Shown here one piece after another: positions 1,125 through 51,395 of a stretch of DNA of 64,000 nt; position 1 is the stretch's first letter; each line of letters begins with the position of its first letter. Under the pieces are notes generated by a model. That model saw nothing but the letters and a program-made list of their open reading frames with translations, was not told the DNA's origin and made no database searches. Source of the DNA: Branchiostoma floridae (Eukaryota > Chordata > Leptocardii > Amphioxiformes > Branchiostomatidae); the NCBI RefSeq assembly GCF_000003815.2, contig NC_049983.1, forward strand, positions 23,599,978-23,663,977. The letters run 5' to 3'. Position numbers and translations under genes: made by a program.

Positions 1125-4100
1125 CTGTAGGGCAGATATGGCTTTTCTTAAACCAACATGTAGTTCAATATTATATGTATTTTGAGCATTGCAAGGTGTT
1201 TTGCTGGAAGCAAGTCAAGGGAGCTCAAGAACCTGTTATATTAGAACTTACCAGCATCCGCAAAATGTTTTGCGGAAAACATGAGGACATGCGGGTGTCG
1301 TTACAAAAATATCAGCTACATTTATATCAGCGAAAACCTAATACAAATTGTTGTCACGCAGCAGAAGATCAATATCAAAGCTGTACTTTTCCCTTAAGCC
1401 CACAATATTAGCATTAAGTCAAGCATCTGCACTTGTAACTTTGTCTTTTATCTTTAACTGGTTATTGTACCTGTTTTTCTTGGGTGTTTTCACTGTCCGT
1501 GATGTTGTACAGCACAATGAAGACGGTGTTCTCTGCATCCATGAACATATTGTGGGTCACCGCGTACTCTGACTGACCAGCAAAATCCCACACACTGATC
1601 TCCCCCACCCCTGGAACATGGAACGTTCCAATATCCACCCCTGGGGTGGGGTCGTGAGGTTGGCTCAATGGCCGTCGGGAGAGTCTTTGGATCAGTGCAG
1701 ACAGCAGGCCCTGGTGTGCAACATTTTAGTAAAAGTAAGAATAAAAAAATGTGTTTCTCCATGAAATAGAGTTAATTAGGATTTGACCGATCATGGATAA
1801 AGTAAATTAGCTTACCTTTGTGAGACTTTGTTTTAGAGTGGACTTCCCAGTTGTCTCATTCCCTCCTATGAACACCTTAAACCTGTTGACCTTCATCCCG
1901 CCTGACTGCTGCAGCAGCTCGTGGTAGGATTTTTCTTGCTTTAGCTTTTTCTCGAAATTCTAAAGGTGACAAATGTATGATTATCAATGATCATGGCGTA
2001 CTATGTTTCCGAACTTGTCGCAGAACAAACATTAAATGCATTTGATATTTGTACAGGATACCTGGCGATACTATTCAAAAGGCTATTATCAATAGTACAA
2101 AGCTAAACTCTCTTCCTATACAAAAGTACACGCAGATCAAATTTTCAGCGACCACTGTTGCCTTCTTCAGGATCAATACTGATGACCAATCACTTCAGAA
2201 CGTAAAATCGTGGATACGTGACATAATCTATTGGTCGTACGTGCCATGAAGTTTATAACGCCCACCGTCTCTGTTCAATGATGGCTGGACTACCCTGATG
2301 TATATGACCTCCTTTCTACCTCTTACAAAGTAGTCCTGTTCAGTGTCTAGTATTCAAAAGGCCGTTGATCAGATGTCAAGAAATGTACACTATGAAAATG
2401 GATCAAGAAAAGTTGTGTTGGCAGCTTTTCATTTACCTTCAAATGCAGTCGAGTCTTCGAATCCTGTGTGTAATTCAAGGGAGTCTTTCCCTCCTGTAGT
2501 GGAAAACATGAAAGATATGTAATATCTTGCTGTTACGGTCTGCACACACACTGTGTCGCAAGTGTGCAGACCGTAGGCACTTTCCTTCTAACAACACGGA
2601 ACCTGTGACCTGCACTGAGCCAAAGGATGCAATCGGAAGTTCTGCAAACTCGATCCATGTTAGCTCCTCCCACCGAAAGGTAAACAATGCTGCTCACCCC
2701 GCCCATGATGACGAACTGGGAAGCAACGTTAGCGGCGAATGCCATGACAAGCGTCACAGTGAGAATGAACAAATCGAATGTGAAAGATGCCAAAAATGGA
2801 TGTGTGCACCGTGTATGAAGATGCCTAAGGCTATGCTTAATGCACTCATCAAGCACCGATCTCTACACTGGTATTGCTCCACCTGCGAGCCACTAGCAGT
2901 GGAAGGAGCACGATCCGGTGCAGAGACAGAGAACGGATTTGACGAGCCGACGATAGCATCAATCGCGCAAAAGACAGCCACAGCCATAGCTGCCTGCATC
3001 GAAAGCAAACTGCAAAACTTTCCGCCAACCAGTTCCAGCAATGATACTCAGGGTCAGGGGCAAAAGCAATCCTATGCAGATGTAGCCAGAAACCTCAGCC
3101 GCTTCACAGGCACCATCAATAAGATTGTTGCAGGCACTACTACACCCCAGTCATCCTCTCTCAATCCTCAGGAACCCAGGGAAGTGGTCCAGTTGGTGGA
3201 CGAGTACATCGAGCGGGAAAAGAGGCGAAAGAACCTCGTAGTTTTCAATGTTCCAGAGGATTTAAAGGACTCGACCGGCAGCACGCTGAGTGATACAAAG
3301 GTCTTCACAGACATCACTAAAGAAGAATTCAACCTCGTCCCCAAGGTACAAGCAGCCTACAGACTGGGAAGGAGGAACCCTGAGAAGCCAAGACCACTCC
3401 TGATCAAAATAGACAATGACGACACTTTGAGCAGGGCCTTGATCCTCAGGAGAGCAAAAGACTTGAGAAACAGCACTCGGTGGTGTAGAGTGTACATTGT
3501 GCCCGATATGACGCCAAAAGAGAGGGAAGTGGATAAAAAGTTGCGACAGGAGCTCAAATCTCGACGAGAAGCAGGAGAAGCAAACCTGGTCATCAGACGC
3601 GGACGAATAGTGTGCACACAGACAACTGGAGAATCACAGCCGCCGGACGGCAACAACGACCAATCCCAGGCCTGACTCGACAACCACAACCATCTATCAT
3701 GTAGCAACAGGAAGGAGGAGAGTAAACTGAACATTATGTACACAAACATTGATCAACTTCCAAACAAAAGGGACGACCTGACGTTAGCCATATCAACAAA
3801 AAAGCCTGATGTGATAATTCTAACGGAAGCGATCCCCAAGGCTCAGAGATTACCTATTGGAGCAGCTAGAATCACCATCCCCGGGTTCACAGCTCACATG
3901 AACTTTGACCCTGACCAAGGAAATCTTGGAACACTGGGAAAGCGAGGGATTGTGATCTACACAGCAGACTACATTGATGCAACCGAAGTCTCCTACAGTG
4001 ACATTGAGTTCCAGGAGCACCTGTGGGTGCAAGTACGTTTGAGAGGACGCGATAAACTATTAATAGGAGGCATCTACAGAAGCCAGTCTTCTGACCCAAA

Positions 4101-7100
4101 GTCGTCAACTGAACACTTGGCACAACTTCTACAAGTAGTCACGGGGACTAGTCCTACGCACCTCGTAATCGCTGGTGATTTCAACTATCCTGAAATCGAC
4201 TGGGAACAAGCAACCTCATGTGCAAATGACGCTCACCCATCCCACCTTTTTCTTCGTTGTGTGCATAAAAACCTTCTGTACCAACATGTCTTCAAGCCCA
4301 CTAGATACAGACCCGGTGAGTTACCGAACATTCTCGATCTAGTTCTGACAAATGAAGATGGAATGGTGGAAAACATTGAGTACAGTGTACCTACCTGGTA
4401 TTGGACATAGTGACCATATAAGGCTGCAGTTTGAAACCAGACTATACTCCGAGAGAAAGGACAATCCAACGCCAAGACTCAGCCTATACCGCGGTGACTA
4501 CGTCAATATGGCTGCAGACTTATCTGGTATTGACTGGGACACCAGGCTCATGGACAAGTCCTTCGACGAGGCGTACAGTGATTTCATTAGCATTCTACAA
4601 ACCAGTATTACTTCAAATATCCCTCTGACGAGCAAGAAATCATGTAAGAAGAACTTGTACTCCACCCCAGCAGTCAAGAGTCTCAGCAAGAAAAAGCGGA
4701 GTAGTTGGGACCGTTACACTGCATCTGGAGACGAGGTGGATTACGCCCGATATGCTGCTCTGCGGAATGACCTCAGAAAGCTCACCAGGAAGCTCCGATA
4801 TGAGTTTGAGTCTAACCTTGTTCGAGACGTAAAACGGAACCCTAAGTCTTTTTGGAAATACGTTAACTCTCGTCTCAAGACCAAATCTGTAATCGGAGAC
4901 CTGAAGATGGCGGATGGTACCATGACGACTAGCAGCAAGGAGAAGGCAGACACCTTGAACCAGTTCTTCTGCAGTGTGTTTACGAGAGAAGAAACTGGCC
5001 GCATGCCCAGAATGGAAGCTAAGTACTACGGACCCAACCTGGAGGACATCACAATTACTCCTGAAGGTATTCTGAAAAAACTGAAAAAGCTCAAGAAGGA
5101 TAAGTCCCCCGGTCCAGATGGTCTGCATCCCAAGATACTAGCAGAAGTCGCGGAAGCCGTAGCCAGACCGCTTGCTATTCTCTTCCGAAAGTCGCTGAAC
5201 GAAGGCCGGCTGGCAGAGGAATGGAGACTTGCCCACATAACTGCCATACACAAGAAGGGACCGAAGAACGAACCTGGGAACTTCCGCCCTATTTGTCTTA
5301 TGTCTGTCATTGTGAAACTGTTCGAGTCTGTTATTAGGGACGCTCTTGCAGACCACATGATGGTGAACGAACTCTTCTGTGACCAGCAGCACGGCTTTGT
5401 GCCCGGAAGATCGTGCATGGTTGGATTCAGGCCTTTTTAACAGACAGAAGACAGCGTGTTTGCGTTGATGGTGAATTGTCAGAATGGGCCACGGTTTCAA
5501 GTGGAATTCCCCAAGGATCTGTGCTTGGACCAATTCTCTTTGTTATTTTCATTAACGACATGCCAAGCACTATCGAAAGTGCCTGTCGCCTCTTTGCAGA
5601 CGACACCAAGGTGTTCCGTCGAGTGAGTTCTCCAGAGGAGGTTGCCACCTTAATTACAAGCAGACATCGACAATTTGGCAGATTGGTCTAAGGACTGGCA
5701 GCTCAGCTTCAACATCACGAAATGTAAACGCATGCATATAGGATATGGTAACCCATGCCAACAATACGAGATGCAAGGCCTCACCTTGGAAGAAACCAGT
5801 GAGGAGCGGGATCTGGGTGTAATTGTCGACCAGAAACTGAAATTCCATGCGCATTGTACCACCACCGCCGGCAAGGCATTCCGAACCCTGGGGCTAATCA
5901 GGAAGAGTTTTCAACGGCTCGATGAGACAACTGTGCCCATATTGTACAAGACTATGGTTCGCCCTATACTAGAGTATGGAAACGTCATTTGGGGTCCTCA
6001 CTTCAAAGGTGACCAGCAACTGCTCGATAGAGTACAACATAAGGCGACGCGACTTATACCTGGTTTTGGTGAACTTACCTACGAGGATAGACTGCGCCGC
6101 CTCAGGCTCCCCACCCTTGAACACCGCCGTAAGAGAGGCGACATGATACAGCTATTTAAGATCGTCAAGGGGTTTGACCGCATTGACCCTAACCGCCTTT
6201 TCAAATTCAATGTTGATGGACGTACGAGAGGACACTCCTTCAAGATTGTGAAACCCCTAGCCAAAAAGTCAGCTCGGTCCAATTTCTTCAGCGTTAGGGT
6301 CATCAATGCATGGAACGATCTTCCCGCGGATGTAGTGGCTGCTGACTCTGTAAACATTTTCAAATCGAAGCTGGACAGTTATAGTAATTACTGGGGGGGC
6401 ATTGAGTACACGCCTAGCCCAACATAAACTCTATATTGTTATTACAGTCTCTTTTCACAAACTCTGGATTCTAGCTTTTAATTGTTAATTGTTGAATAAA
6501 ATGGACACTAGTTTTTAATTGTTAATTGTTAGATAAAATGGAAACTAGTTTTTAATTGTAATCGTTAGAAGCGGATTTCATAGGCAAACTGCCTCCTATC
6601 CGATGATGTGATATGATATGATATGATATGATACTAATTAATCTCCCATGGTCACTTTCAGACCAAAGGAGGCAAAAAACAGCTTGCCAACCAACAAACT
6701 TCAGTAAGTCAAAATAACTGCAGGGTATGTATCTCGTGAAAGGTGTGTGATTGGGTAGCGTAATCGGAAGTGTACTGGGCTCAGGCAAAAATACCGGGTT
6801 CGATTCCTGCCGTGCCATTGGGAAAGTCACGACCTTTCTTCACTTCACTCAGATGAAAATGAGAACCTAGCTTTGGTTAGTGCCGTCTCTCAGATAGGAC
6901 GTTAAATTGAGGCACCATGTTTGATGTGAGACACACCCCACGTACGTGCATGTTTAAGAGCGCACCATACCTTTCGAAAAAGAGTAGGAACATGCCCCGG
7001 TGTGCAACGGTGCAAACCATCCATGTTGTTGACTATGATTGTTACATGATGCAGTGTTCTTGTGTAGGCTTCAATGTACAATAACAGCAGACATGTGTAC

Positions 7101-39592: not shown

Positions 39593-39633
39593 ATATTGAA
39601 GTTTTTCCACTGTAGTACAACACAAATTATTCT

Positions 39634-39680
39634 CACCTCGAATTTTCAGTCGCTCTTCCGTCGACCTTCTTCAGGAGTGA
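39634..39680 (-). ncRNA. Hammerhead-like core, left arm
   Basis: On the minus strand: CTCCTGAAGAAGG, stem II TCG..CGACT with one bulge, GAAA, ATTC, GAGGTGA. CTGAAGA is at 39668-39674 and GAAA at 39644-39647. Stem I can pair CTC with GAG. Confidence 0.5.
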
Positions 39681-39684
39681 CGAT

Positions 39685-40413
39685 TCAGTTACTCTGATCA
39701 CGTGACTTAGAGACACGTGATTCGAGTAACGAATCATAAATGCCTGGCAGACGATATCGGCCCCCGTCTCTGTTGAGTGTCGGCTGATGTGCTCTTATGT
39801 AGATGGCCTCCTTTACCCCCCTCGCAAAGTAATCCGATTCGGTGTCCAATATTTGTACTTTGTCCAAGCTGATGAAATGTCCCGGTGACTCAATATGAAT
39901 GTGTTGTGATACCTCCGACGAGGCCGAACTCTTTCTCCTGTGCTCCAAGAACCTAGTCTTGAGCGAGCGCTCAGTTTCCCCAATGTATGATTCTTGGCAG
40001 GGACCACGGGTATTTCTTCCCTGACACGGGATGTGGTATATCACGCCACACTTGTCCTCCTTCTTTGTTTTGTCTTTTGGTGCCACCAGTGACTGTCGTA
40101 GGGTTCGCGTAGGTCTAAAACAGGTTTGTATGTTGTGGCTCGCGAAAATCCTACGGAGGTCTTCCGAGACGCCCTTCACATAGGGCAGGACGACAAACCC
40201 TCTGTTGTTCTGGCGCGTGGCAGGGTTCGGGTTGTGGTCACGGGGAACAGTGGACCTGGGTGTCGTGGCTTTGTTTATAGCCCAAGACGGGTATCCACAC
40301 TGCTTAAGTGCTTGTGTTATGTGTAATGTTTCTTTTTGTCTGTTGAGCGGGTCAGTGATGATAGTATTGGTACGGTGTAAAAGTGTTCTGACTATATATC
40401 GTCTGCCAGGCAT
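39685..40413 (-). pseudogene. Penelope-like GIY-YIG endonuclease ORF, N-terminally truncated
   Basis: 242 codons. The body reads GFVVLPYVKGVSEDLRRIF, then CGVIYHIPC, SYIGETERSLKTRFLEHRR and ESDYFARGVKEAIYIR, the GIY-YIG endonuclease with its preceding Cys motif, as at the C-terminus of Penelope-like polyproteins. The apparent first residues (MPGRRYI) come from the inverted arm, not the native protein. The reverse transcriptase domain is absent. The catalytic YIG, Arg and terminal region look intact. Confidence 0.9.
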
Positions 40414-40472
40414 TTATGATTCGTTACTCGAATCACGTGTCTCTAAGTCACGTGATCAGAGTAACTGAATCG

Positions 40473-40520
40473 TCACTCCTGAAGAAGGTCGACGGAAGAG
40501 CGACTGAAAATTCGAGGTGA
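40473..40520 (+). ncRNA. Hammerhead-like core, right arm
   Basis: Same sequence in inverted position: CTGAAGA at 40479-40485 and GAAA at 40506-40509, with a self-complementary AATT in place of a looped stem III, the layout of minimal (dimer-type) hammerheads. Confidence 0.5.
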
Positions 40521-41004
40521 GAATAATTTGTGTTGTACTACAGTGGAAAAACTTCAATATGTATTCTATCAACACAGATGAGCTTTCATGCTCATATTGT
40601 ATGATGTATGCATCTCATACAACCAATATGATTTGGTCCTGGTAAGTGAGAGGACGAAAATGGATTCGTAATGACCATGACCATGTACACTAGTAGACTG
40701 ACACACTAGTACTACTAGACTTAGATTAACTGGTGACGCAATTTAGACTTTGATTATAACTAATGGGAGTTTATCTATCTATTTGAATAGACATCTATTT
40801 CTGACGACTTTTTATATTAATACAAAAAATTGGAATATCTTAACAAAGAGCGCAGTATCACCAAAAAAGGTAACCGGTGATACCACCGTCATTTACAAAT
40901 ATTATGTCAATTTCACTACATACCATAACTACCTAAACCTACCCCATTTTTGCAATGATGCACTTTCCCTATGCGTGTTTTACAATGCACCTATAAAAAA
41001 ACAA

Positions 41005-42390
41005 AGCAATTCAGCACCAGGGACGGTACTGTGTGACTGCAATTCGGCACCAGGGACGGTATTGTTAGTGTGATTGTAATTCAGCACCAGTGATGGTACT
41101 GTTAGTGTGACTGCAATTCAGCACCAGGGACGGTACTGTTAGTGTAACTGCAATTCAGACCAGGGACGGTACTGTTAGTGTGGCCGCAATTCAGCACCAG
41201 GAACGGTACTGTTAGTGTGACTGCCATTCAGCACCAGGGAAGGTACTGTTAGTGTGATTGCAATTCAGCACCAGGGACGGTACTGTTAGTGTGACTGCAA
41301 TTCAGCACCAGTGATGGTACTGTTGGTGTGACTGCAATTCTGCATCAGGGACGGTACTGTTAGTGTGACTGCAATTCAGGACTAGGGACAGCACTGTTAG
41401 TGTGACTGCAATTCAGCACCAGGGGAGGTACTGTTATTGTGACTGCAATTCAGCACCAGAGACTGTACGGTTAGTGTGACTGCAAATTCAGCACCAGGGA
41501 CGGTAATTTGAGTGTAACTGCATTTCAGCAATAGGGACGGTACTGTTAGTATGACTGCAATTCAGCACGAGGGACGGCACTGTTAGTGTGACTGCAATTC
41601 AGCAAAAGGGATGGTAGTTAGTGTGGCTGCAATTCAGCATCAGGGACGGTACTGTTAGTGTGACTGCAATTCTGCACCAGGGACGGCACTGTTAGTGTGA
41701 CTGCAATTCAGCATCAGGGACGGTACTGTAAGTGTGACTGCAATTCAGCACCAGGGACGGTAGTTAGTGTGGCTGCAATTCAGCATCAGGGACGGCACTG
41801 TTAGTGTGACTGCAATTCAGCACCAGGGACGGCACTGTTAGTGTGACTGCAATTCTGCACCAGGGACGGCACTGTTATTGTGACTGCAATTCAGTACCAG
41901 GGACGGTACTGTAAGTGTGACTGCAATTCAGCACCAGGGACGGTAGTTAGTGTGGCTGCAATTCAGCATCAGGGACGGCACTGTTAGTGTGCCTGCAATT
42001 CTGCACCAGGGACGGCACTGTTAGTGTGACTGCAATTCAGCACCAGGGACGGCACTGTTATTGTGACTACAATTCAGCATCAGGGATAGTACTGGTAGTG
42101 TGTATGCAATTCAGTATCAGGGACGGTACTGTTAGTGTGACTGCAATTCTGCATCAAGGACGGTACTGTTAGTGTCACTGCAATTCTGCACCAATGACGG
42201 TACTCTTATTATGGCCGCAATTCAGCACCAGGGACGGTACTGTTGGTGTGACTGCAATTCAGCACCAGAAACAGTACTGTTAGTGTGACTGTAATTCAGC
42301 ACTAAGGGGAGTGCTGTTAGAGTGACTGCAATGTAGCACTAGCGACTGTACTGTTAGTGTAACTGCAATTCAGTACTAAGGACAACACTT
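41005..42390. repeat. 37-bp minisatellite, about 37 copies
   Basis: Unit GTGACTGCAATTCAGCACCA then GGGACGGTACTGTTAGT, with substitutions and some short units. No conserved spacers, so not a CRISPR array. Confidence 0.95.
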
Positions 42391-43020
42391 TACAGCAGAT
42401 ATTTACAGTCATGTTTAACAAAAAAATATTTATACAATGCAAAAAGTATTTACACATGGATGCAATCAGCAGTCCTTCACTAGTTACAAGACAGCAGACA
42501 AATTTACACCATATCATTTACAAGTGCTTTGTAAACATTTGCTATGCTTATGAAGCTCACTTATAATTATCTCCTTTTGCATGTTAAGGAGGCACACAAT
42601 CCAAAATTACTTTTGAAAATGTTTTGCATCTTATTTCTATATGGCAACGACTGTGTCCTGTCATCCTACAAAGCTGGAGTAGCAACTTTAGAGTCGCTGC
42701 ATCTGTAGACTTATGCACTGGCAAGTTACCACCGTATGACACAGTAGCAACTTTAGAGTCGCCGCATTTACACACTTGCTACCATATGATACCATGGATG
42801 CTACTTTGGTCCATGTACCAGTTTGAATACCAGTACATGGTATGAATCCAAACCTTATAATCTCGATTTTTCACATTTGAGCGGAAAGGAGGGGATGAGA
42901 GAAGTTGAACAACTGTCCTGACAAAAACAATCCTTTACTGCACAAAATGGTAGAATTAACCAAAGTTTGCCATTGCCGTTAACGTTGCTTTGTCTGTCGC
43001 GTCCAATGTTGCCCCTTGAC
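42391..43020. other. No gene seen
   Basis: Contains a short direct duplication of GTAGCAACTTTAGAGTCGC (about 42679 and 42742). Downstream flank of the glycosyltransferase-type gene. Confidence 0.4.
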
Positions 43021-43022
43021 CT

Positions 43023-43650
43023 CTACAGGTCTGCTGCTCCAGCCGGGATACCGCAGGCCTGCAGGAAGGTGCGGTGGGATTCCTTCCAGTACCTGGACTC
43101 CACCAGCTCCTGCTTGAACTTGGCAGTATTCTTAAACTCTGCATCACTGTGCTTGAGGACATCCTTGATTTCTTTTGCATCTCCAGCCAGATCAAAGTCG
43201 TTCACGTTCGTCTTCATGATGACACCTCTGGCTCTTTACCTGATTGATCAGGTCCTTGATCATCTCTGCCAGGCCAGTCTTGTCGGAGATGAGGACGGGG
43301 ATGCCCGCTGCGATGGCCTCAAGGCCGACCAGTCCGAACGGCTCGGAGCGGGACGGCATCAGGACCACGTTGTCCCCGATGTCCCCTTGTATTCCGTACG
43401 GCAGGACGGTTGGATTGAGGTCTCCGCTTTTCAGGTCGTCCTCCAAGATCGTCTTGCTGGACTTGACATCATCCTCGCTGATGCCGCGCACGCGCAATTG
43501 GACGTTCTTGATCCTCTTTACACTTCCCCCATGGACTGTGCTGCGAGGTCATGACCTTTCAGTTTCTCTCCCTGCCGTTTGACAGGACAACTTTCTGCTG
43601 TCCCCCAGGTCGCACGGTGGTGGCCAGGAACATCTCGGATGGCTTCAGTG
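43023..43650 (-). pseudogene. Truncated tandem copy of the glycosyltransferase C-terminal half
   Basis: It starts directly after the stop of the main gene and reads PSEMFLATTVRPGGQQKVVLS, then loses frame, then runs on from VKSSKTILEDDLKSGDL through SRSEPFGLVGLEAIAAGIPV, shifts again near 43220, and ends QELVESRYWKESHRTFLQAC. Frame breaks and the lack of an N-terminal half suggest a pseudogene. Its E-x7-E motif is intact, unlike the main copy. Confidence 0.75.
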
Positions 43651-43655
43651 CACCT

Positions 43656-44893
43656 CTACTGAGCTGTCGTGATGCCACAGACCTGCAGGAAGTTGCGGTG
43701 GGATTCCTCCCAGTACCTGGACTCCACCAGTTCCTGCTTCAACCGGGCAGCTTTCTCAAACTCCGACTTGCTGTACTTGAGGATGTCGACGATTTTGCTC
43801 GCCCATCTCTTTGCGTCTCCTGCGGTATCAGAGTCGTTCACGCTGGTTTTCACAATGACGTGCCTGTGTTCTGCGCTGAGCTTCTCCTGTTCGACCAGGT
43901 TGAGGATCATCTCTGCCAGGCCAGTCTTGTCGGAGATGAGGACGGGGATGCCCGCCGCAATTGCGTCCAGACCGACCAGTCCGAAGGGCTCGGAGCAGGA
44001 CGGCATCAGGACCAGGTGCGATTTCATCATATGTTCCTTGATGTCCTCCTGGGTCTCGTAGAGCAGCAGACTGAGTTTCAGGTCACCACTGTTCAGGTTG
44101 TCTTCAAGGATCTTCTTGCTTGTCTCATAGTCGTTCTCGTTGTCACAGCAAACACACCACCGTGCGTTTGGGATCTCCTTCGCCACATCCCCCATAGCCG
44201 GTCCCGCGATGTCATAGCCTTTCAGCTTCTCCATCTCCCTCACCCTGCCAATGGACAGGACGACTTTCTCCTCTCCGCCAGGTGTCACATTGGTGGCCAG
44301 ATACATCTCGGATAGCTTCGGGAGGAAGATGTGATGACTCTGAGGTTTCTTACTTGCTTTGTACTTGGTGTCAAAGTGGTTGTAGGTCCGCTTGCCAACG
44401 GAAAAAGCTGCCTTTGCGTTGACGACTTTATCAAGCATCATCCCCTCCTTCTTCGAAGCTTTGATAGCCTTCAGGTCTCCATTGAAGTACTCGGTGTCCT
44501 CCGGTAGGACTTGCGTGAACATGATGAGCTCTGCCTCCTTGTAGTAAGCGTTCTGGATGTTTTGTGCCGCCGTATCTGTGATGTCAGCATGACCAATGAT
44601 GACGTCAACATGTTCTGGTAACTTTGACTTCGGGTAACGGGTTAGGTAGTCAAAGGCCAGCCAATCTGTTGTTGGCTCTCTTGTGTCCCCGTCTGGTCGA
44701 TATGGTTTGATCAGGTGGACATTGTACCTCTCTGCTGCCTCCTGGTCTTGTTGCGGCACACGCAAGGCTGTACAGTACACAGTTGCTTTGGCCTTAGTCA
44801 GCATTTGGCCAACTTGGTAGTTAATGGTAGAAACTCCCCCCTTGGAGGCTCCATACTCGTCGTTAACCAACAAGACTACTGGTACTGCAAAGC
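43656..44893 (-). CDS. GT-B glycosyltransferase-like exon (last exon)
   Basis: 1238 bp with acceptor CCTGAAG and a TAG stop. Fold motifs in order: LLVNDEYGASKGGVST (nucleotide-sugar enzyme N-lobe loop), VIIGHAD, FLPKLSEMYLATNV, KVVLSIGRVREMEKLKG (C-lobe start) and SCSEPFGLVGLDAIAAGIPV, the family E-x7-E region, here E-x7-D (E711, D719). A basic helical tail follows. The length is normal for the group. The sugar donor is unknown. Confidence 0.85.
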
Positions 44894-47800
44894 CTTCAGG
44901 AAAACAAAAACCTAGTCAGATCAGAAGGACCAAGCACACATGATTTCATATATATACTCACGCATCTCTGNNNNNNNNNNNNNNNNNNNNNNNNNNNNNN
45001 NNNNNNNNNNNNNNNNNNNNNNNNNNNNNNNNNNNNNNNNNNNNNNNNNNNNNNNNNNNNNNNNNNNNNNCCCAAATCAACATAATGCAGGCAATACCTG
45101 AAGGAATTGGTATTTGCAGTTGCTTGCTCACAGGCTCTGTCTCTGTAGGTGTGGAAAGGTTGCTGCCACCTTCTCCAGCTGCTGTACTTTGCTTGTACCG
45201 TCCTGAATAAAGGGAATAACTACTCATAAAAGTGCTCAATAAGAAAATATATTCTTAAAAGAATATATTTTCGTATTGACCAAAATAGTCTGGTATTCAA
45301 ACCTTTTGTTCTTTGCTCCTATTCAATGCTATTGAAACCAAATAAGCTGGCTGTGGAAGCAATGTTATATTTTTCAAGCCCAAGTCACAGACAAGAATAG
45401 AGAGACTTACCAAGTGTTAGTTTTGAAACGGACGTCTCCTCTGCTTCAACGTCAGTCCTTTTCAGCAGTTCCAGGTGCAATTGTGAGGTGTTGCTCATCC
45501 AGATCTCAGCAGTAACTTTCACTCGGAATGATTCGTAGTATTTGTTGTTGTTGAGGGTATCCTCAAACACAAGGTACTGAAAATTTAATATTATGTATAA
45601 AACATAGAGATATGAACTTATCCTCACTGTGTACAAAAGTATTTGATGACACATGTCAATTTATGACTTATCTGTATGCATACAGCCTGACAGTCAGCAA
45701 GTTTGGTTAGATTGTTCAGGGGCTATATTATTTGAATTTAGTCATCCTAGTAGTGTTAGTTATGTATAATTGTTTTACTGTCGTTCCTACACTGAACTGG
45801 AGCAGTCTGTGATCATGGTAAATGTAGCTATTCATGACTGACAAGCATTGTGTTTAACAAGGCAACAGGAACCCGCCCACATGTGGACACATTATGTAAC
45901 CAACATGTGTACATGTATCATACTGTGAATAAAGGAACGGCCAATTTCTGAACAGATCAGCTCTGATTAAGACACACAGAGAATGCACACCATTCCAACA
46001 GAACTGCCATTATGTAAATCAAATATTCTTATTACCAACCTCTGGAGAAATAGACACATTTAAAGTGTCCTCCCCACTTGTAACAATCCCCTTTAGGCAG
46101 CAGATGTCACCTGGATTCAAAAGGCAGGTTTTGAAGTCACATGGCACAAAGTTCCATTCTCTCTCATCCTCTTTTAGGGTCTGTGGCAGTAACATAAGAA
46201 GACAGCATTCATAAGATACAAGTTCATTTTGAAATAAGATGAAAGCTGTTCAGAAGGTTATGCATTATCATTCATATCCTTGAGTATATTATTGACATCA
46301 TTCATATTTATTGTTCAATTGACATATAAAAAAGTGCAAAAACTGGTCTACACGTTTTAAGAAGAGAGAAGAAGCATGTAAATTATATTTTTCATGTATA
46401 GCTTTTAGTTTACTTCCTTTTGTATCAAACTTACTTCATTTAGCCCCAATTGGGCATGTATATGCAATACACTTCATTGTTGATTGTTAATAACAGAAGA
46501 ATGGACCATTTGATTATTCGATGCTGATCTTAAAGTATTAATACATAAACATAAACAAAAGTCTCTTACCTCTTTCATCTCTTTAGTGTTGGAGACAATG
46601 TAGACTTTCAATTGGGAGAGGTCAGAGTCCTCTAAAGAACGAAAGGCCATTAGAAGGCAACTCCTAGATACACTGTTCACTTCTTCTGTCCTGCCCACCA
46701 CCCCAAACAGGCTGCCTTTCTTGAACCTGGTCACAGCGTGGGAAGAGGTGAGTTCTGTAACTGGCAGCAGCTCGACTGAATCACCCACCACATGGACAAC
46801 TTGTAGGCTTTCCCTGGTGATTTCTGTGGTAAGAATAATAAACAGCATTTATACAAAAAAATGAAAGCAGGGCTATCGCACCACAGAACATAACATTCCT
46901 GTAATATATCTTTTCATTTTCTCCCTTATATCATTTTATTTATCTATGATACTATGTCATACCTGGCCTGTGATAACATTCAATGGGGTTGTACCAGACG
47001 GGTGATATTTTGGATTACCACACGGGCTTCCATTCATAGATGCGGATGCACTTTGCGTGGGCCGAGTTCACCACTGTCTAAAAAGCGAATACTAGATTCG
47101 GATGTTGGAATTGACGTTGTTACAATATTGTATTCAAAGACACCAAAGTTTTTCAACTTTTGGCGCATATTTGAATGTTTCATTTTTAAGGTGAGTATAA
47201 CATAAAACAAAATGCAACACAGTGTATTCAGGATCACCCATTGGGCCTTGGCCAACTACCTACAGTTGGGCTAAGCCTTGCATTCTATTTATTATAATTA
47301 TCATTATTATTGTATATACCGGAAATAACATTGAGCTTGGTAAACATTTTCCTCCTTACCTGTGTTGTCAGTCAGATGCAGGACGTGTGGCAGTAGGATG
47401 TCCACTGGGCCTTCTACATCCTCACACTGGATGGAAAAGAGCTGACCCACCGGCATCCATTCCTCCACCTCCGCCCAGTTTTCGGACCAGTTCGCACTCT
47501 TGTAGGTCACATGCAGCGGGTAGGGCGTCACCACGCCAAGGTCGGTCCGTCTGCACAGGTACTTCCCTTCAACTGGCAGATGCAGAGACCTAAGGTGGTA
47601 AATGCAGGTCCTGGACTTGAGGTGCTTTTAGTCAACTTCAAAAACATTACAGGCTTTTAAGCAAACTATTGACATATTTTGAAAGGCAATAAATCCTTTG
47701 AATTAACATCGATTTTATGGAAGTTACTGCCCAAGAATCCAATCAAGCATAGATCATGGTCTATGATAATTTTCAGCAATTAAATGATTGAATATTCAGC

Positions 47801-50019
47801 AAAACTAATTAGGAATAGAAAGAGCATTGTAGTGTCATACATTAAAATCTCTGTAACTTCTTTGGGATACATTTATATATATGACACACAAGACTTGCAG
47901 AGGGGGACTAATGTCATGTAAATGCTTACCATTGTTTGTCTTCTGTCATTTCTGGATAGACCTCTTTACACTCCAATGCATCACGGTACTTCTGTGGCAC
48001 ATAAGACATATCTCAGTTCAATCAGAAATATAACATATTTCAATCCATCTTCATCTCTATTCCTAAGTGTACATATAGAATACAACACGGTGTATTCCGT
48101 ATCACCTGAGGTACCAGCCCGACCGCGGGTCGGATCACACGACGGCGGGAGGGCTGGGACCGAGGGTGATGCGGAATACGCCGTGTTGTGAGAAAACCCC
48201 TGTTTTGATGCGAAATACGCCAGAAGTTGAACAAATCTGTTGCCCTCGAAAAAAAAGCGTTGCAACAGTGATATTCCAACGTCCGAATCAGGTATTCGAA
48301 CTTTCGATGGCGCCGCACTCAGCCCACTTGAAACAGTTCTATTTATTCGAATGGAGCCTGTGTGATAAGCCCGGGCCGTACGGAAAAAAGGTACAGGAGC
48401 CAAAAATATAAGATATAATTTTATGTATTTTGGAATATAGAGAACATTATAAGGCATGTAACCGGTAAAACTCAGTGTGTTTACTTTGCAACAGAACACA
48501 ATGGAAAAATCATGATGCGTGAAGATGGCCCGACTTGCGTGAAGATGGCCCGACTAGCAATGACTTTCATTCAACAATCTGTAGCTTTTGGTGCAAATCT
48601 GGGAAAATCATTGAATGTCTGTTTTCCATTCTATACCCAATAAAGCCAGCTATTTCTAACCTGCATGATGTTGAATACACATCATATCAGTGCCTGGCAC
48701 TGTCTGCCCCAATCTAAGGTCATAAACAAACTTTAAGATGCTCTCATTGTGTGGGCTATTTTCTACTCAAAGTTCTAGGTCTATCTTAGCATGAAAATTC
48801 ATCTGTGTTGGTAGAATACATTATGGAGAAAGTTTCTAAGCTTTACTTCCAACACAGAAAAATATAGGCCGGACTAATACCCTCTAAACTTTCGGTCGAA
48901 CTCCGTCGACATAGTTCACAGAATGACCCTATCTCCAGCAGTGACGTCATACTTATGACCGCCTCCTGCAAAAGTGGTGTGTTCCTGACGTCACTGCTGG
49001 AGATAGGGTCATTCTGTGAACAAGGTCGACGGAGTTCGACCGAAAATTTAGAGGGTAAGTCCCTATATTTTTCCGTGTTGGAAGTAAAGCTTAGAAACTT
49101 TCTCCATAATATATTCTAGGTCTATCATTGTCTGCTAAATGAACAACAAAGCTTTTAATTAACATAAAGCCAGTCATCCCCAAAGAAAGTTCCCAGGGAA
49201 AGTTATTATACAACAACTTTTTAAAAGTTTGTTATAACTCGGTTAACTTATAACATGTTTCAACATCTGAACAAGGAGGTTAACAAGGATTTAATCTGAA
49301 TATCCACACATGCATCTTGTGCATATTAAGCAGGAATACGGGACACAAGTCATGTAAGATTTAAAACACCATCACTAGGCCGCCACCATCTTTGTTACCT
49401 TTGATCTGATTTGGGGACCATCCATTGATAAAGGGAGGGGTGCGCATCACAGAAAAAGTAAGTGTGCCACACAGAAAAGTAAGTGTGTCATGCAGAAATA
49501 AAGGAAGTGTAACTTCTGCAAAAAAGTTTGAGTGTGTCGCGCAGAAAAAAAAGTGTGTTTTACAGAAAAAAAGTAAGTGATTTAGTGTGTTGCGCAGAAA
49601 AAGTAAGTGTGTTGCACCAAGGAGGAAGAAGAAGAAGAAGAAGAAGAGAGACACGACAAAAACCATGCAGGGTTTAAAATACAAATATTGAGTCAAAGAA
49701 ATTCAATACTTTTTATCAATAGCAGTCAAATTTGAATTTTCTGGCCCACCTTGTACATGTCCTGTACAGTTGTAGCCAAGTTCTGCTCGCCCATGTCCTG
49801 TAGTAGTATTTCCTGCAGCTGCGGCAAGTAGTGGAGCGGTCCGTGGGGGGTCTCTGTCCGCCATGCCTTAAGTATCTGGAATACCTTCTGAGATTCGTCA
49901 TCACCTGTAATGTCTAACACAGGCTTGCCCATTCCCATGGCCAGCTCCTGTCCCAGCAGAATCCACTCCTTGACAAAAGCTCTGCTGAGCTGATACAGCA
50001 GTGGCTCTGTCGAACACAT
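43656..50019 (-). CDS. Death - ZU5/UPA (FIIND-like) - GT-B glycosyltransferase fusion protein
   Basis: Eight exons join with GT-AG ends and matching phases into 822 codons including the stop. Residues about 1-90 are Death-domain-like, 112-187 ZU5-like, 188-375 UPA-like, 376-409 a Ser/Thr-rich linker, and 410-821 a GT-B glycosyltransferase group 1-like domain with a Gly-rich N-terminal loop (GASKGG), the LSIGRV..EKLKG strand and SEPFGLVGLDAIAAGIPV. Death domains recruit partners, and ZU5/UPA tandems (as in PIDD, UNC5, NLRP1) fold together and may self-cleave. The glycosyltransferase half has no signal peptide, so it should act in the cytosol. An assembly gap at 44971-45070 lies in an intron. 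The start Met at 50017-50019 is uncertain. The combination suggests a sensor or adaptor with an enzymatic output. That role is inference. Confidence 0.8.
44971..45070. other. Assembly gap (100 N)
   Basis: It lies in the intron between exons 7 and 8. The flanking exons are phase-compatible, so no exon need be missing, though a phase-1 cassette could be hidden. Confidence 0.95.
45098..45202 (-). CDS. Linker exon (exon 7)
   Basis: 105 bp, RYKQSTAAGEGGSNLSTPTE then TEPVSKQLQIPIPS, low-complexity Ser/Thr/Gly linker between UPA and glycosyltransferase. Phase 1 at both ends. Confidence 0.75.
45411..45576 (-). CDS. UPA-like exon 6
   Basis: 166 bp, YLVFEDTLNNNKYYESFRVK, VTAEIWMSNTSQLHLELLKR and on to KLTLG. 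Beta-rich end of the UPA-like region. Acceptor TTTCAG, donor GTAAGT. Confidence 0.75.
46040..46180 (-). CDS. UPA-like exon 5
   Basis: 141 bp, TLKEDEREWNFVPCDFKTCL then LNPGDICCLKGIVTSGEDTL and NVSISPE. Phase 0 at both ends; acceptor CCACAG, donor GTTGGT. Confidence 0.7.
46570..46823 (-). CDS. ZU5/UPA junction exon 4
   Basis: 254 bp, EITRESLQVVHVVGDSVELL through SSHAVTRFKKGSLFGVVGR to DLSQLKVYIVSNTKEMKE. The spacing of H216 and S225 matches the His...Phe-Ser self-cleavage site of FIIND proteins, but the residue before Ser is Gly. The tail (LKVYIVSNTKEM) matches the start of UPA domains. Confidence 0.75.
47010..47235. repeat. Dispersed MITE-like family, copy 2
   Basis: In an intron of the fusion gene. 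Shares GATTCGGATGTTGGAATTG and CACCAAAGTTTTTCAACTTT with copies 1 and 3 and ends ACACAGTGTATTC. Confidence 0.6.
47360..47589 (-). CDS. ZU5-like exon 3
   Basis: 230 bp, (W)SLHLPVEGKYLCRRTDLGVV ... WMPVGQLFSIQCEDVEGPVD then ILLPHVLHLTDNT. The GPVDILLPH strand is the signature edge of ZU5/FIIND domains. Acceptor ACCTTAG, donor GTAAGG. Confidence 0.8.
47930..47991 (-). CDS. Exon 2, Death-to-ZU5 linker
   Basis: 62 bp, KYRDALECKEVYPEMTEDKQ plus two bases of a Trp codon completed in exon 3. Acceptor GCCACAG, donor GTAAGC. Confidence 0.7.
48075..48335. repeat. Dispersed MITE-like family, copy 3, with fold-back core
   Basis: AACACGGTGTATTCCGTATC faces GATGCGGAATACGCCGTGTT across about 65 bp of GC-rich sequence (48080-48187), followed by the same body as copies 1 and 2 in reverse. 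Confidence 0.65.
48786..49113. mobile_element. Hairpin Penelope-derived insertion with 13-bp target duplication
   Basis: Inverted arms of about 140 bp meet near 48965. TTCTAGGTCTATC is duplicated at 48773-48785 and 49114-49126. Each arm carries GGTCGACGGAGTTCGACC, GAAAATTTAGAGGG or its variant, and the CTACCAACACAGATGAA-type end. No coding sequence. It lies in the intron between exons 1 and 2 of the fusion gene. Confidence 0.8.
49440..49650. repeat. Degenerate tandem repeat AGAAAAAGTAAGTGTGT plus (GAA)n
   Basis: Irregular units of about 30 bp with CGCAGAAAAA(G)TAAGTGTGT, then GAAGAAGAAGAAGAAG at about 49625-49645. Confidence 0.8.
49750..50019 (-). CDS. Death-domain exon 1
   Basis: 270 bp, 90 codons from ATG: MCSTEPLLYQLSRAFVKEWI LLGQELAMG... 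QKVFQILKAWRTETP ... LPQLQEILLQDMGEQNLATT. Six-helix pattern with the helix-1/2 W and LG (WILLGQEL) and helix-5 KAW typical of Death domains. Donor GTGGGC. GACAG inside codons 4-5 could instead be an acceptor, so an upstream exon is not excluded. Confidence 0.75.
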
Positions 50020-50155
50020 TCCACATCATAATGTGTTGCAGTATTTATATATTCGACAATTTGAAAGGTTATCTTTTTTTGAAAGGAAGTCAATTTACAT
50101 AGATCAGTCTCGCTAGAAGCAAGTCAGACTGTTCTGTAAGTATTGTATTGTTTAC

Positions 50156-51395
50156 CTGTGTGAAAATCAACTCGCCCCGAACGGTTCGAACCGGTCCGAG
50201 GGCAGTCCGAGCGGTCCGCCTACGTCAAAGCCGTCCGGCCCGCGAGGCTGCCAGTCCGAGCGCCGGGCGGTGAACCGTCATTAAGTGGTTCAGCACGTTC
50301 GGCAGTTCAGGACCGCCGGACGCTTCGGGCGCCGTAAAACACTTAGAAAAAAATTGCCGCCGCCCTGCCAAATTTTGTCTAAGTCCCTAAATTGTATGAA
50401 GCCGTGCGACAGCGCCCCCTTCCGTACACTAGGCGCAGCGGCCAGAAGAGCAGTAGAGTCCGTAGGTGAGACTATTAGACATTGTTAGAGGCATGCATTA
50501 CGTCCATTATTGCGGGGCAACAGCCAGAGCGGGCGAACACTAATAGTAATAGCGTTGCACTATCGCCAGAACAATACAAAATGTACTATGAAAATTTAAA
50601 AAATTGAGATTTTTCTACCTTCAAATCTACAACTTTTCTTCTATATTATATTTTGGCCGCGACTAATGAATGGGTGACGTGTTTTCATTGTACATATATG
50701 TCACCACGCACGGCTGTCTGAAGTGAAGAGTAGAGTATAATCTATACTCAATAGAGTAGCTAAAACNAGCCTGTGTGAAAATCAACTCGCCCCGGACGGT
50801 TCGAACCGGTCCGAGAGCAGTCCACGTCGTCCGCCTACGTGAAAGGCGTCCGGCCCGCGAGGCTGCCGGTCCGCGCGCCGGGCGGTGAACCGTCATTAAG
50901 TGGTTCAGCACGTTCGGCAGTTCAGGACCGCCGGACGCTTCGGGCGCCGTAAAACACTTAGAAAAAATTGCCGCCGCCCGGCCAAATTTTGTCTAAGTCC
51001 CAAAATTGTATGAAGCCGTGCGACAGCGCCCCCTTCCGTACACTAAGCGCAGCGACCAGAAGAGCGGTACAGTCCGTAGGTGAGACTATTAGACATTGTT
51101 AGAGGCATATTTTACGTCCATTATTACGGGGTAACAGCCAGAGCGGGCGAACACTAATAGTAATAGCGTTGTACTGTCGCCTAAACAATACTAATAGACT
51201 AAGTTATCCTATGAAAATAAAATAAAAATGAGATTTTTCTACCTTCAAATCTACAACTTTTCTTCTATATTATATTTTGCCCGCGACTAAGGAATGGGTG
51301 ATGTGTTTTCTTGCATATTCGTTCACCACGCACGGCTATCTGAAGTAAAGAGTAGAGTATAATACAATACTCAATAGAGTAGCAAAAACCAACTG
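50156..51395. repeat. 615-bp tandem duplication (two copies)
   Basis: 50156-50770 and 50771-about 51390 are near-identical, each starting CTGTGTGAAAATCAACTCGC and ending ACTCAATAGAGTAGC. An ambiguous base lies at 50767. A GC-rich GGTTCGAACC-containing end is shared with 57650-58145 in inverted orientation. It lies just upstream of the Death exon. Confidence 0.85.

Follow-up and report, generated by a model that had tools for sequence, protein, structure and literature searches.

Death-FIIND-UPA-GT4 genes of Branchiostoma floridae and a putative FIIND-gated glycosyltransferase

Gene Model and Domain Content

The stretch of DNA analysed here, called the window throughout, comprises 64,000 nucleotides of the Branchiostoma floridae genome (G000:C5:23599978-23663977), and its minus strand carries at 43656-50019 a gene in which a Death domain, a FIIND (ZU5), a UPA region and a glycosyltransferase of the GT4-conflict family follow one another. 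The reading frame is open across eight exons, with GT..AG introns and compatible phases, and gives 820 residues and a stop codon. Among the GT/AG combinations tried, 24 leave the frame open, and one of these was chosen as the 820-residue model; an alternative exon 2 acceptor (47991 instead of 47988) adds one residue. The first-pass annotation of this DNA had described eight exons with GT-AG ends and matching phases, in agreement with our model, and a length of 821 residues, which is obtained with the other exon 2 acceptor. The gene and the features adjoining it are listed below; other loci are cited by our own numbers (L019 and the like).

50155..51194, no strand: repeat pair, 93-95% identical, presumed 5' truncation point (repeat search)
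49750..50019, minus strand: exon 1, Death domain, residues 1-90 with the ATG at 50019 as start (open frame and donor)
47930..47988, minus strand, acceptor 47988 or 47991: exon 2, linker into FIIND, residues 91-110 (splice sites and phase; homologous exon in L019, 67% identity)
47360..47589, minus strand: exon 3, first half of FIIND/ZU5 (PF13553 FIIND; CARD8 structure 7jkq_B)
46570..46823, minus strand: exon 4, second half of FIIND, including the presumed site of self-cleavage (CARD8 alignment; 22 FIINDs of the same genome)
46792-46794, 46714-46716 and 46711-46713, minus strand, in exon 4: His197, Gly223 and Ser224, respectively
46040..46180, minus strand: exon 5, middle part of UPA (PF23679 UPA-FIIND)
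45411..45576, minus strand: exon 6, last part of UPA, with phase-1 donor (Pfam; phase-1 donor at the equivalent place in 8 sequences)
45098..45202, minus strand: exon 7, 35-residue linker, both ends phase 1 (open frame and splice sites)
44971..45070, no strand: 100-N assembly gap in intron 7, which could conceal sequence including an exon (runs of N)
43656..44893, minus strand: exon 8, GT4-conflict glycosyltransferase and stop codon (PF20706)
44511-44513, 44145-44147 and 43965-43967, minus strand, in exon 8: the unusual residues Gln536, Cys658 and Asp718, respectively (residue comparison)
43047..43645, minus strand: decayed partial copy of the GT4 exon, covering its C-terminal half (model residues 601-816), in several frames (tblastn of the model against the window)

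Three Pfam families match the model above their curated cut-offs: FIIND PF13553 at residues 105-232 (E 2.5e-30), UPA-FIIND PF23679 directly after the ZU5 at residues 242-353 (E 7.6e-8) and GT4-conflict PF20706 at residues 416-808 (E 2.6e-66, profile positions 1-383 of 385; E 3.5e-67 with exon 8 alone). Glycos_transf_1 (4.1e-16) and Glyco_trans_1_4 (7.4e-13) also match. Because FIIND and UPA-FIIND both pass their cut-offs, a generic ZU5 was ruled out, and what had been annotated as a FIIND-like ZU5/UPA region and a group 1 glycosyltransferase domain can be named more narrowly as FIIND with UPA and as GT4-conflict. Among solved structures, CARD8 (7jkq_B, E 1.6e-4) matches the FIIND/UPA part best. 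Pfam finds no CARD in the model, GT4 standing at the C-terminus instead, and no NACHT in the model, to which the NACHT scan was confined. The GT4 and Death exons have no match in the PADLOC defence library, and NCBIfam gives just GT4 biosynthesis models under their cut-offs and other weak matches.

The Death exon of the window gene has no Pfam match even at E 10. We aligned it with 14 paralogous exons out of 18 available (L017, L030, L037 and L038 were omitted); PF00531 is found in each of these 14 at E <= 1 (best 7.1e-12), although some of them may fall short of the Pfam cut-off, and a profile of all 15 exons finds the death domains of RIPK1 (E 6.5e-4) and FADD (E 3.4e-3) in PDB. Because its 14 paralogues match PF00531, exon 1 is, judging from homology, a Death domain by descent that has diverged in the window copy. 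The profile search that the first-pass annotation had proposed thus recovers FIIND/ZU5, UPA and Glycos_transf_1 directly, and its Death domain by way of the paralogues, the window exon itself giving no hit.

FIIND and GT4 Exons across the Genome

Exactly 100 N separate the FIIND/UPA/linker exons from the GT4 exon in the window, a feature absent from the first-pass annotation, and because this gap lies between exon 7 and the GT4 exon, the fusion is unproven from the window alone. Separate FIIND/UPA and GT4 genes, neighbouring each other, might have been misjoined over the gap as an assembly artefact. In the 513 Mb assembly of the same genome we found at least 104 matches of the GT4 exon and at least 59 FIIND exon matches at E <= 1. 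The 33 FIIND matches starting at profile positions 9-11, merged if within 4 kb, define 29 FIIND loci; 26 matches, mostly second halves and including one second half near a GT4 exon on C3, were left out. In 21 of the 29 loci a GT4 exon follows on the same strand, no more than 12 kb downstream; the counts for within 12 kb upstream and for within 12 kb on the opposite strand are 0/29 each. Of the FIIND arrangements found in this genome, the one with GT4 after FIIND is the most frequent. The order of Death, ZU5/UPA and glycosyltransferase described in the first-pass annotation is therefore right, and it is not unique to the window. The UPA-FIIND profile found no match in this genome or in 14 control genomes, which is uninformative, the domain being probably split over exons.

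Nineteen of the 20 other FIIND-GT4 loci were retrieved, in 20 stretches, one locus on C191 being left out; L011 is the GT4 of L021, L016 the GT4 of L019 and L018 the gene of L028, and each was entered once per count. No N occurs from FIIND exon 3 to the GT4 start in 16 of the 19, and 15 of these 16 have a Death exon upstream (all except L028; those of L037 and L038 are short matches). The GT4 motif was found in the window and 19 loci, and in each of these 20 sequences a phase-1 AG stands ahead of it. The exon 6 donor is phase 1 in 8/8 sequences found by a pattern built on the window exon end, and the window GT4 frame has no ATG ahead of its conserved motif. The linker of exon 7 has a similar stretch in L020 (50% identity), and its first part matches L019 at the nucleotide level.

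Several points weigh against the fusion or soften its support: the join in the window crosses the gap, gaps between FIIND and GT4 also occur in L019, L022 and L035, AGs of other phases likewise precede GT4 in many loci, and the 12-kb limit was chosen after the tables had been seen (accepted distances are 1.8-8.9 kb, and one excluded locus has a GT4 at 14.3 kb). Because paralogues without any gap show the same FIIND-to-GT4 order, the fusion is nevertheless supported; the 21 of 29 loci, the N-free paralogues and the phase-1 AGs together make a chance joining of two genes unlikely, and we regard a misjoin as highly improbable.

What follows UPA differs among loci. Two of the eight FIIND loci without GT4, L039 and L040, were read downstream, and in both UPA is followed by a Death exon (5.3e-16 and 2.9e-14), so that the contrast drawn earlier, in which such proteins normally end in a CARD or Death domain and here in an enzyme, is fair. 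The gap-free locus L020+L021 (G000:C17:16180500-16193600) has two Death exons between UPA and GT4, and because of this position Death may serve as an output there, the Death and enzyme outputs being possibly combined or alternative; this locus counts against a simple enzyme-only ending.

The FIIND Cleavage Site

In the alignment with CARD8 (residue numbers counted from the printed chain), H270 corresponds to His197 of the model, S297 to Ser224 and Phe296 to Gly223. We aligned 22 FIINDs of the same genome, namely the window FIIND, 19 linked to GT4 and 2 without this link. His197 and Gly223 are each present in 22/22 and position 224 is Ser in 20/22 and Thr in 2/22, whereas the top-residue fraction of the FIIND exon averages 0.61. 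In the tandem-FIIND genes of contig C191, the first FIINDs that were aligned (L036 and L038) have lost the His, the Gly and the Ser.

Vertebrate FIIND needs the corresponding His and Ser (PubMed Central, PMC, articles PMC3210808 and PMC8081665), and autocleavage is lost when the His is mutated (PMC8081665). The SFS motif of FIIND is completely conserved according to D'Osualdo 2011, and the CARD8 mutant F296H is severely defective (PMC3210808). With the stroke marking the cut, the motif SF/S of vertebrates, with its buried Phe, is replaced by KG/S or KG/T in all 22 FIINDs of our alignment, and together with the F296H result this replacement speaks against cleavage as it is known in vertebrates. 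Because the position of CARD8 Phe296 is Gly in all 22, cleavage here may not occur or may work by another way. Self-cleavage between Gly and Ser is known from SEA domains. From the alignment we consider G/S a possible self-cleavage site, unlike the vertebrate SF/S.

The fusion may also be real with an uncut FIIND. ZU5-UPA is a structural or oligomerisation part in UNC5 and ankyrin, and FIIND-UPA could be such a part here, with the glycosyltransferase working unreleased. The Gly in place of Phe before Ser agrees with this, seeing how F296H cripples cleavage of CARD8 (PMC3210808). The invariant His, the hydroxyl preserved by the Ser-Thr exchange in an exon of much lower mean conservation, and the loss of the catalytic residues in two aligned first FIINDs of tandem genes argue in the other direction, and we consider an uncut FIIND a serious but rather unlikely possibility.

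The GT4 Domain and the State of the Window Copy

The GT4 domain of the window was compared with 26 others, 18 from the same genome and 8 bacterial. Residues of donor-binding or catalytic type (the EX7E pair, Arg/Lys and His) are kept in most of these 26 relatives, and the window copy retains E710, R625 and K633. It deviates, however, at 3 of the 33 columns that are invariant in the other 26 (H536Q, G658C and E718D), and at position 546 it has Asn where 25/26 others have Lys; of the other rows, one bacterial row has 4 such deviations and the rest have at most 2 each. In a profile alignment with MshA (3c4q), positions 536 and 718 correspond to His133 and Glu324, which we take to contact donor or substrate. 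The GT4 activity of the window copy is, judging from these residues, probably lost or altered.

The bacterial GT4 relatives comprise 6 plasmid records, 5 genome loci and one contig of a viral collection (L008); a single protein query found no relative in viral contigs, and L008 was found with an alignment query. Bacterial L002 is a 1645-residue frame with a C-terminal GT4-conflict domain and a weak NPHP3_N match (E 0.0066, under cut-off), and it adjoins a SIR2-like gene. Pfam finds neither FIIND nor UPA in bacterial L001 and L002.

GT4 might instead sense glycans or nucleotide sugars in the manner of the C-terminal sensor regions of NOD-like receptors (NLRs), with Death as the output. Bacterial STAND fusions often place GT4 C-terminally, in a position comparable to that of lectin-fold domains (PMC8195603), and both the N-terminal Death domain and the Death exons before GT4 in L020+L021 are classical outputs. 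Most of the 27 aligned GT4s, those of bacteria as well as of this genome, retain the Glu of EX7E, the Arg, the Lys and the His, however, which binding alone might not need, and a sensor role seems to us unlikely.

The front end of the window gene differs from that of its paralogues. In paralogues the start of the Death exon carries an acceptor-like AG; in the window such an AG (50008-50007) would give an internal exon of 49750-50006. The ATG at 50019 may, on this comparison, not be the true start; it may also act as a new start, and L019 too has an in-frame ATG close to the equivalent of 50019. Upstream of the Death exon, L023 has a Roc-COR exon (Roc 1.5e-17; COR-A 5.6e-8, slightly under cut-off), which is matched in 9/12 other retrieved C3 loci, some of these having little upstream sequence. 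A conserved 143-residue exon is common to L019, L020 and L022, where it lies upstream of Death, and to L041, and a second conserved upstream exon occurs in L020, L022 and L041, with a weak CARD match in L020 only (E 0.041, under cut-off). Two readings made by eye were dropped: a TIR-like fold of the 143-residue exon has no Pfam support and its PDB profile search gives a best E of 1.1 to an unrelated entry, and a "ZU5-like" region at L041:3125-4048 has no tool support. The Roc-COR, 143-residue and CARD-like exons find no convincing counterpart in the window (best E 0.099), and homology to L019, the nearest paralogue, ends at 50153, where the repeat pair begins at 50155. On these two grounds the window copy looks 5'-truncated.

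An LRR-Roc-COR part is also found at L042+L010 (G000:C14:1967500-1975802), where it is followed on one strand by OTU protease exons and then by GT4 in a putative single gene (Pfam: LRR_14 1.2e-42; Roc 4.5e-13; COR-B 5.8e-9; OTU 5e-7 and 1.3e-6).

The ratio of nonsynonymous to synonymous change (omega), estimated by NG86 in four triples, is 0.40-0.55 on the window branch and 0.23-0.29 on the sister branches, and the GT4 exon has 0 stops where a mean of 7.6 to 9.1 would be expected from neutral drift amounting to 0.23 to 0.3 substitutions per site. Because stops are absent and omega lies above that of the sister branches, the window copy is best read as constrained through much of its history, and less so than its kin. 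The decayed duplicate beside it still matches GT4-conflict (E 4.1e-20 on 43195-43548). In several loci the GT4 exon is followed downstream by further copies of its C-terminal half, mostly broken (window 43047-43645, L012 2738-3097, L015 2734-3356 and several C5 places), possibly relics of alternative last exons.

Three findings for this copy count against its being a working enzyme: the changed invariant residues, the raised omega, and the lack of the upstream exons seen in L019, L020 and L022. An enzyme as the active output of the window copy, as the first-pass annotation had it, is unsupported in view of H536Q, G658C and E718D and of the upstream exons of the nearest paralogues that are missing. 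The window copy, as distinct from the family, could be in decay, or could be a pseudoenzyme serving its intact paralogues as a decoy or regulator. To the changes just named can be added the truncation at the repeat, the Death exon that alone among 15 has no Pfam match and the adjoining decayed duplicate; on the other side, the frame is open through all eight exons, whose splice sites are usable, omega is below 1 and the stops expected under drift are absent. We find this question evenly balanced, and a decaying copy is compatible with our best explanation of the family. The window gene does belong to this family, of which it is probably a worn member.

Exchange of Modules between FIIND and GT4

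The FIIND and GT4 parts of one locus do not always share the same nearest relatives. Synonymous divergence (dS) between the window and L024 is 0.38 for FIIND exon 3 and 1.40 for GT4, and between the window and L036 it is 1.31 and 2.46 for the FIIND exons and 0.93 for GT4. The trees were built from a subset of the retrieved loci (17 FIIND rows and 21 GT4 rows, with long bacterial branches flagged). L036, L037 and L038 group together in the FIIND tree (100/99); in the GT4 tree L037 groups with L022 (100/100), and L036 and L038 group with the window (99/99).

Topology tests were made with the FIIND rows without L031, L039 and L040 and the GT4 rows without the three bacterial rows. The GT4 data reject the FIIND clade L036+L037+L038 with a loss of log-likelihood (lnL) of 86.7 (approximately unbiased test, p-AU 3.8e-47), and the FIIND data reject the GT4 clade L022+L037 with a loss of 191.6 (p-AU 1.6e-45); two more forced groups lose 119.5 and 192.6. 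L022 is gapped between FIIND and GT4, whereas L036, L037 and L038 are gap-free, and the test of these three is therefore independent of gaps. It has to be set against these values that the tested groups were named after the first trees had been seen. In these alignments the tree of FIIND and that of GT4 are in strong conflict, as though GT4 had been passed around as an exchangeable cassette.

Gene conversion of FIIND exons, rather than movement of GT4, could be another source of this conflict. FIIND exon 4 is 99% identical in protein between the window (46570-46821) and L019 (2560-2814), and because its dS is 0.07 there and 0.26 to 0.62 in other parts, a recent gene conversion of this exon between the two is likely.

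Relation to Known Systems

NLRP1 and CARD8 release a UPA-CARD part that builds an inflammasome. The model resembles them in having FIIND followed by UPA and in the correspondence of His197 and Ser224 with His270 and Ser297 of CARD8; it differs in ending in GT4, not CARD, and in having Gly, not Phe, before the Ser. PIDD1 is autoproteolytic and consists of LRR, two ZU5, UPA and Death. It shares the ZU5-UPA switch, and some paralogues here have tandem FIINDs with Death; the C-terminus here is, however, an enzyme, and two aligned first FIINDs of the tandem genes are without catalytic residues.

Metazoan conflict proteins with GT4 domains were described in 2021, including GT4 with TRADD-N and LRR in cephalochordates, hemichordates and cnidarians and more than 500 GT4 paralogues in Acropora digitifera (PMC8195603). 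These share a conflict-type GT4 in immune-like fusions with our genes, and differ in that the available text pairs TRADD-N with GT4 and TRADD-N with FIIND or UPA-ZU5, not FIIND, UPA and GT4. Figure 6A of that paper may already show the FIIND-GT4 fusion. Among bacteria, the same paper describes conflict proteins in which GT4 is joined to STAND or to AP-GTPase(COR), and it puts forward lateral transfer. The C-terminal GT4 is common to these and our genes, as in L002 with its weak sub-threshold NTPase match, and paralogues here carry Roc-COR ahead of Death-FIIND-GT4, recalling AP-GTPase(COR)-GT4; FIIND and UPA are unmentioned in the section of PMC8195603 on the bacterial proteins.

The coral A. 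digitifera has NACHT with Glycos_transf_1 (Hamada et al., as cited in PMC13133943), which likewise fuses an immune receptor part to a glycosyltransferase domain, with NACHT there and FIIND-UPA here. This case, with the many coral GT4 paralogues mentioned above, bears out the coral link made in the first-pass annotation. In the portions available from the open-licence PMC literature we found no description of FIIND joined to GT4; one figure legend of PMC11508797 lists FIIND and GT among NLR domains.

Other Features Observed

The first about 25 codons of FIIND exon 3 occur as tandem repeats with a spacing of 131 bases just ahead of the exon in three loci (L023 3475-4335, L026 4543-4879 and L034 5706-6173). 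In the window, a 37-base tandem repeat array lies at 41050-42491, and 39593-40560 holds two 165-base arms, 100% identical as inverted repeats and 638 bases apart. The arms extend into a 242-residue frame (39688-40413), by eye the GIY-YIG end of a retroelement, without a Pfam match at 0.01. Long plus-strand frames at 2512-6424 look by eye like the endonuclease and reverse transcriptase of a non-LTR (long terminal repeat) retrotransposon.

Proposed Mechanism and Meaning

The explanation we favour, with about even confidence, is that these genes form an expanded family of intracellular immune-type proteins with the core Death - FIIND (ZU5) - UPA - GT4-conflict, acting as FIIND-gated glycosyltransferases, of which the window copy is probably a worn member. 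FIIND would cut its own chain between Gly223 and Ser224 and the two parts would remain bound; loss of the N-terminal part, as by degradation in NLRP1 and CARD8, would release UPA-GT4, and the freed glycosyltransferase would modify a target of the invader or the host. The N-terminal Death domain, with Roc-COR or CARD-like parts in paralogues, would supply assembly or sensing. The architecture itself is real; self-cleavage, release of UPA-GT4 and glycosylation of a target are steps to which we reason. The fullest form of the scheme we offer only tentatively: self-cutting at Gly-Ser/Thr and loss of the N-terminal part would free, as effector, a UPA-glycosyltransferase of bacterial conflict descent, replacing caspase recruitment, and the GT4 exon would have been swapped between receptor genes as a phase-1 cassette.

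FIIND in this genome is mostly linked to an enzyme among the loci found, and the conflict between the FIIND and GT4 trees provides a tangible example of modules being exchanged. Should cleavage and release work as proposed, the "functional degradation" switch would not be tied to caspase recruitment, and, if the scheme is true, an animal would employ as immune effector a glycosyltransferase whose family is known from bacterial conflict.

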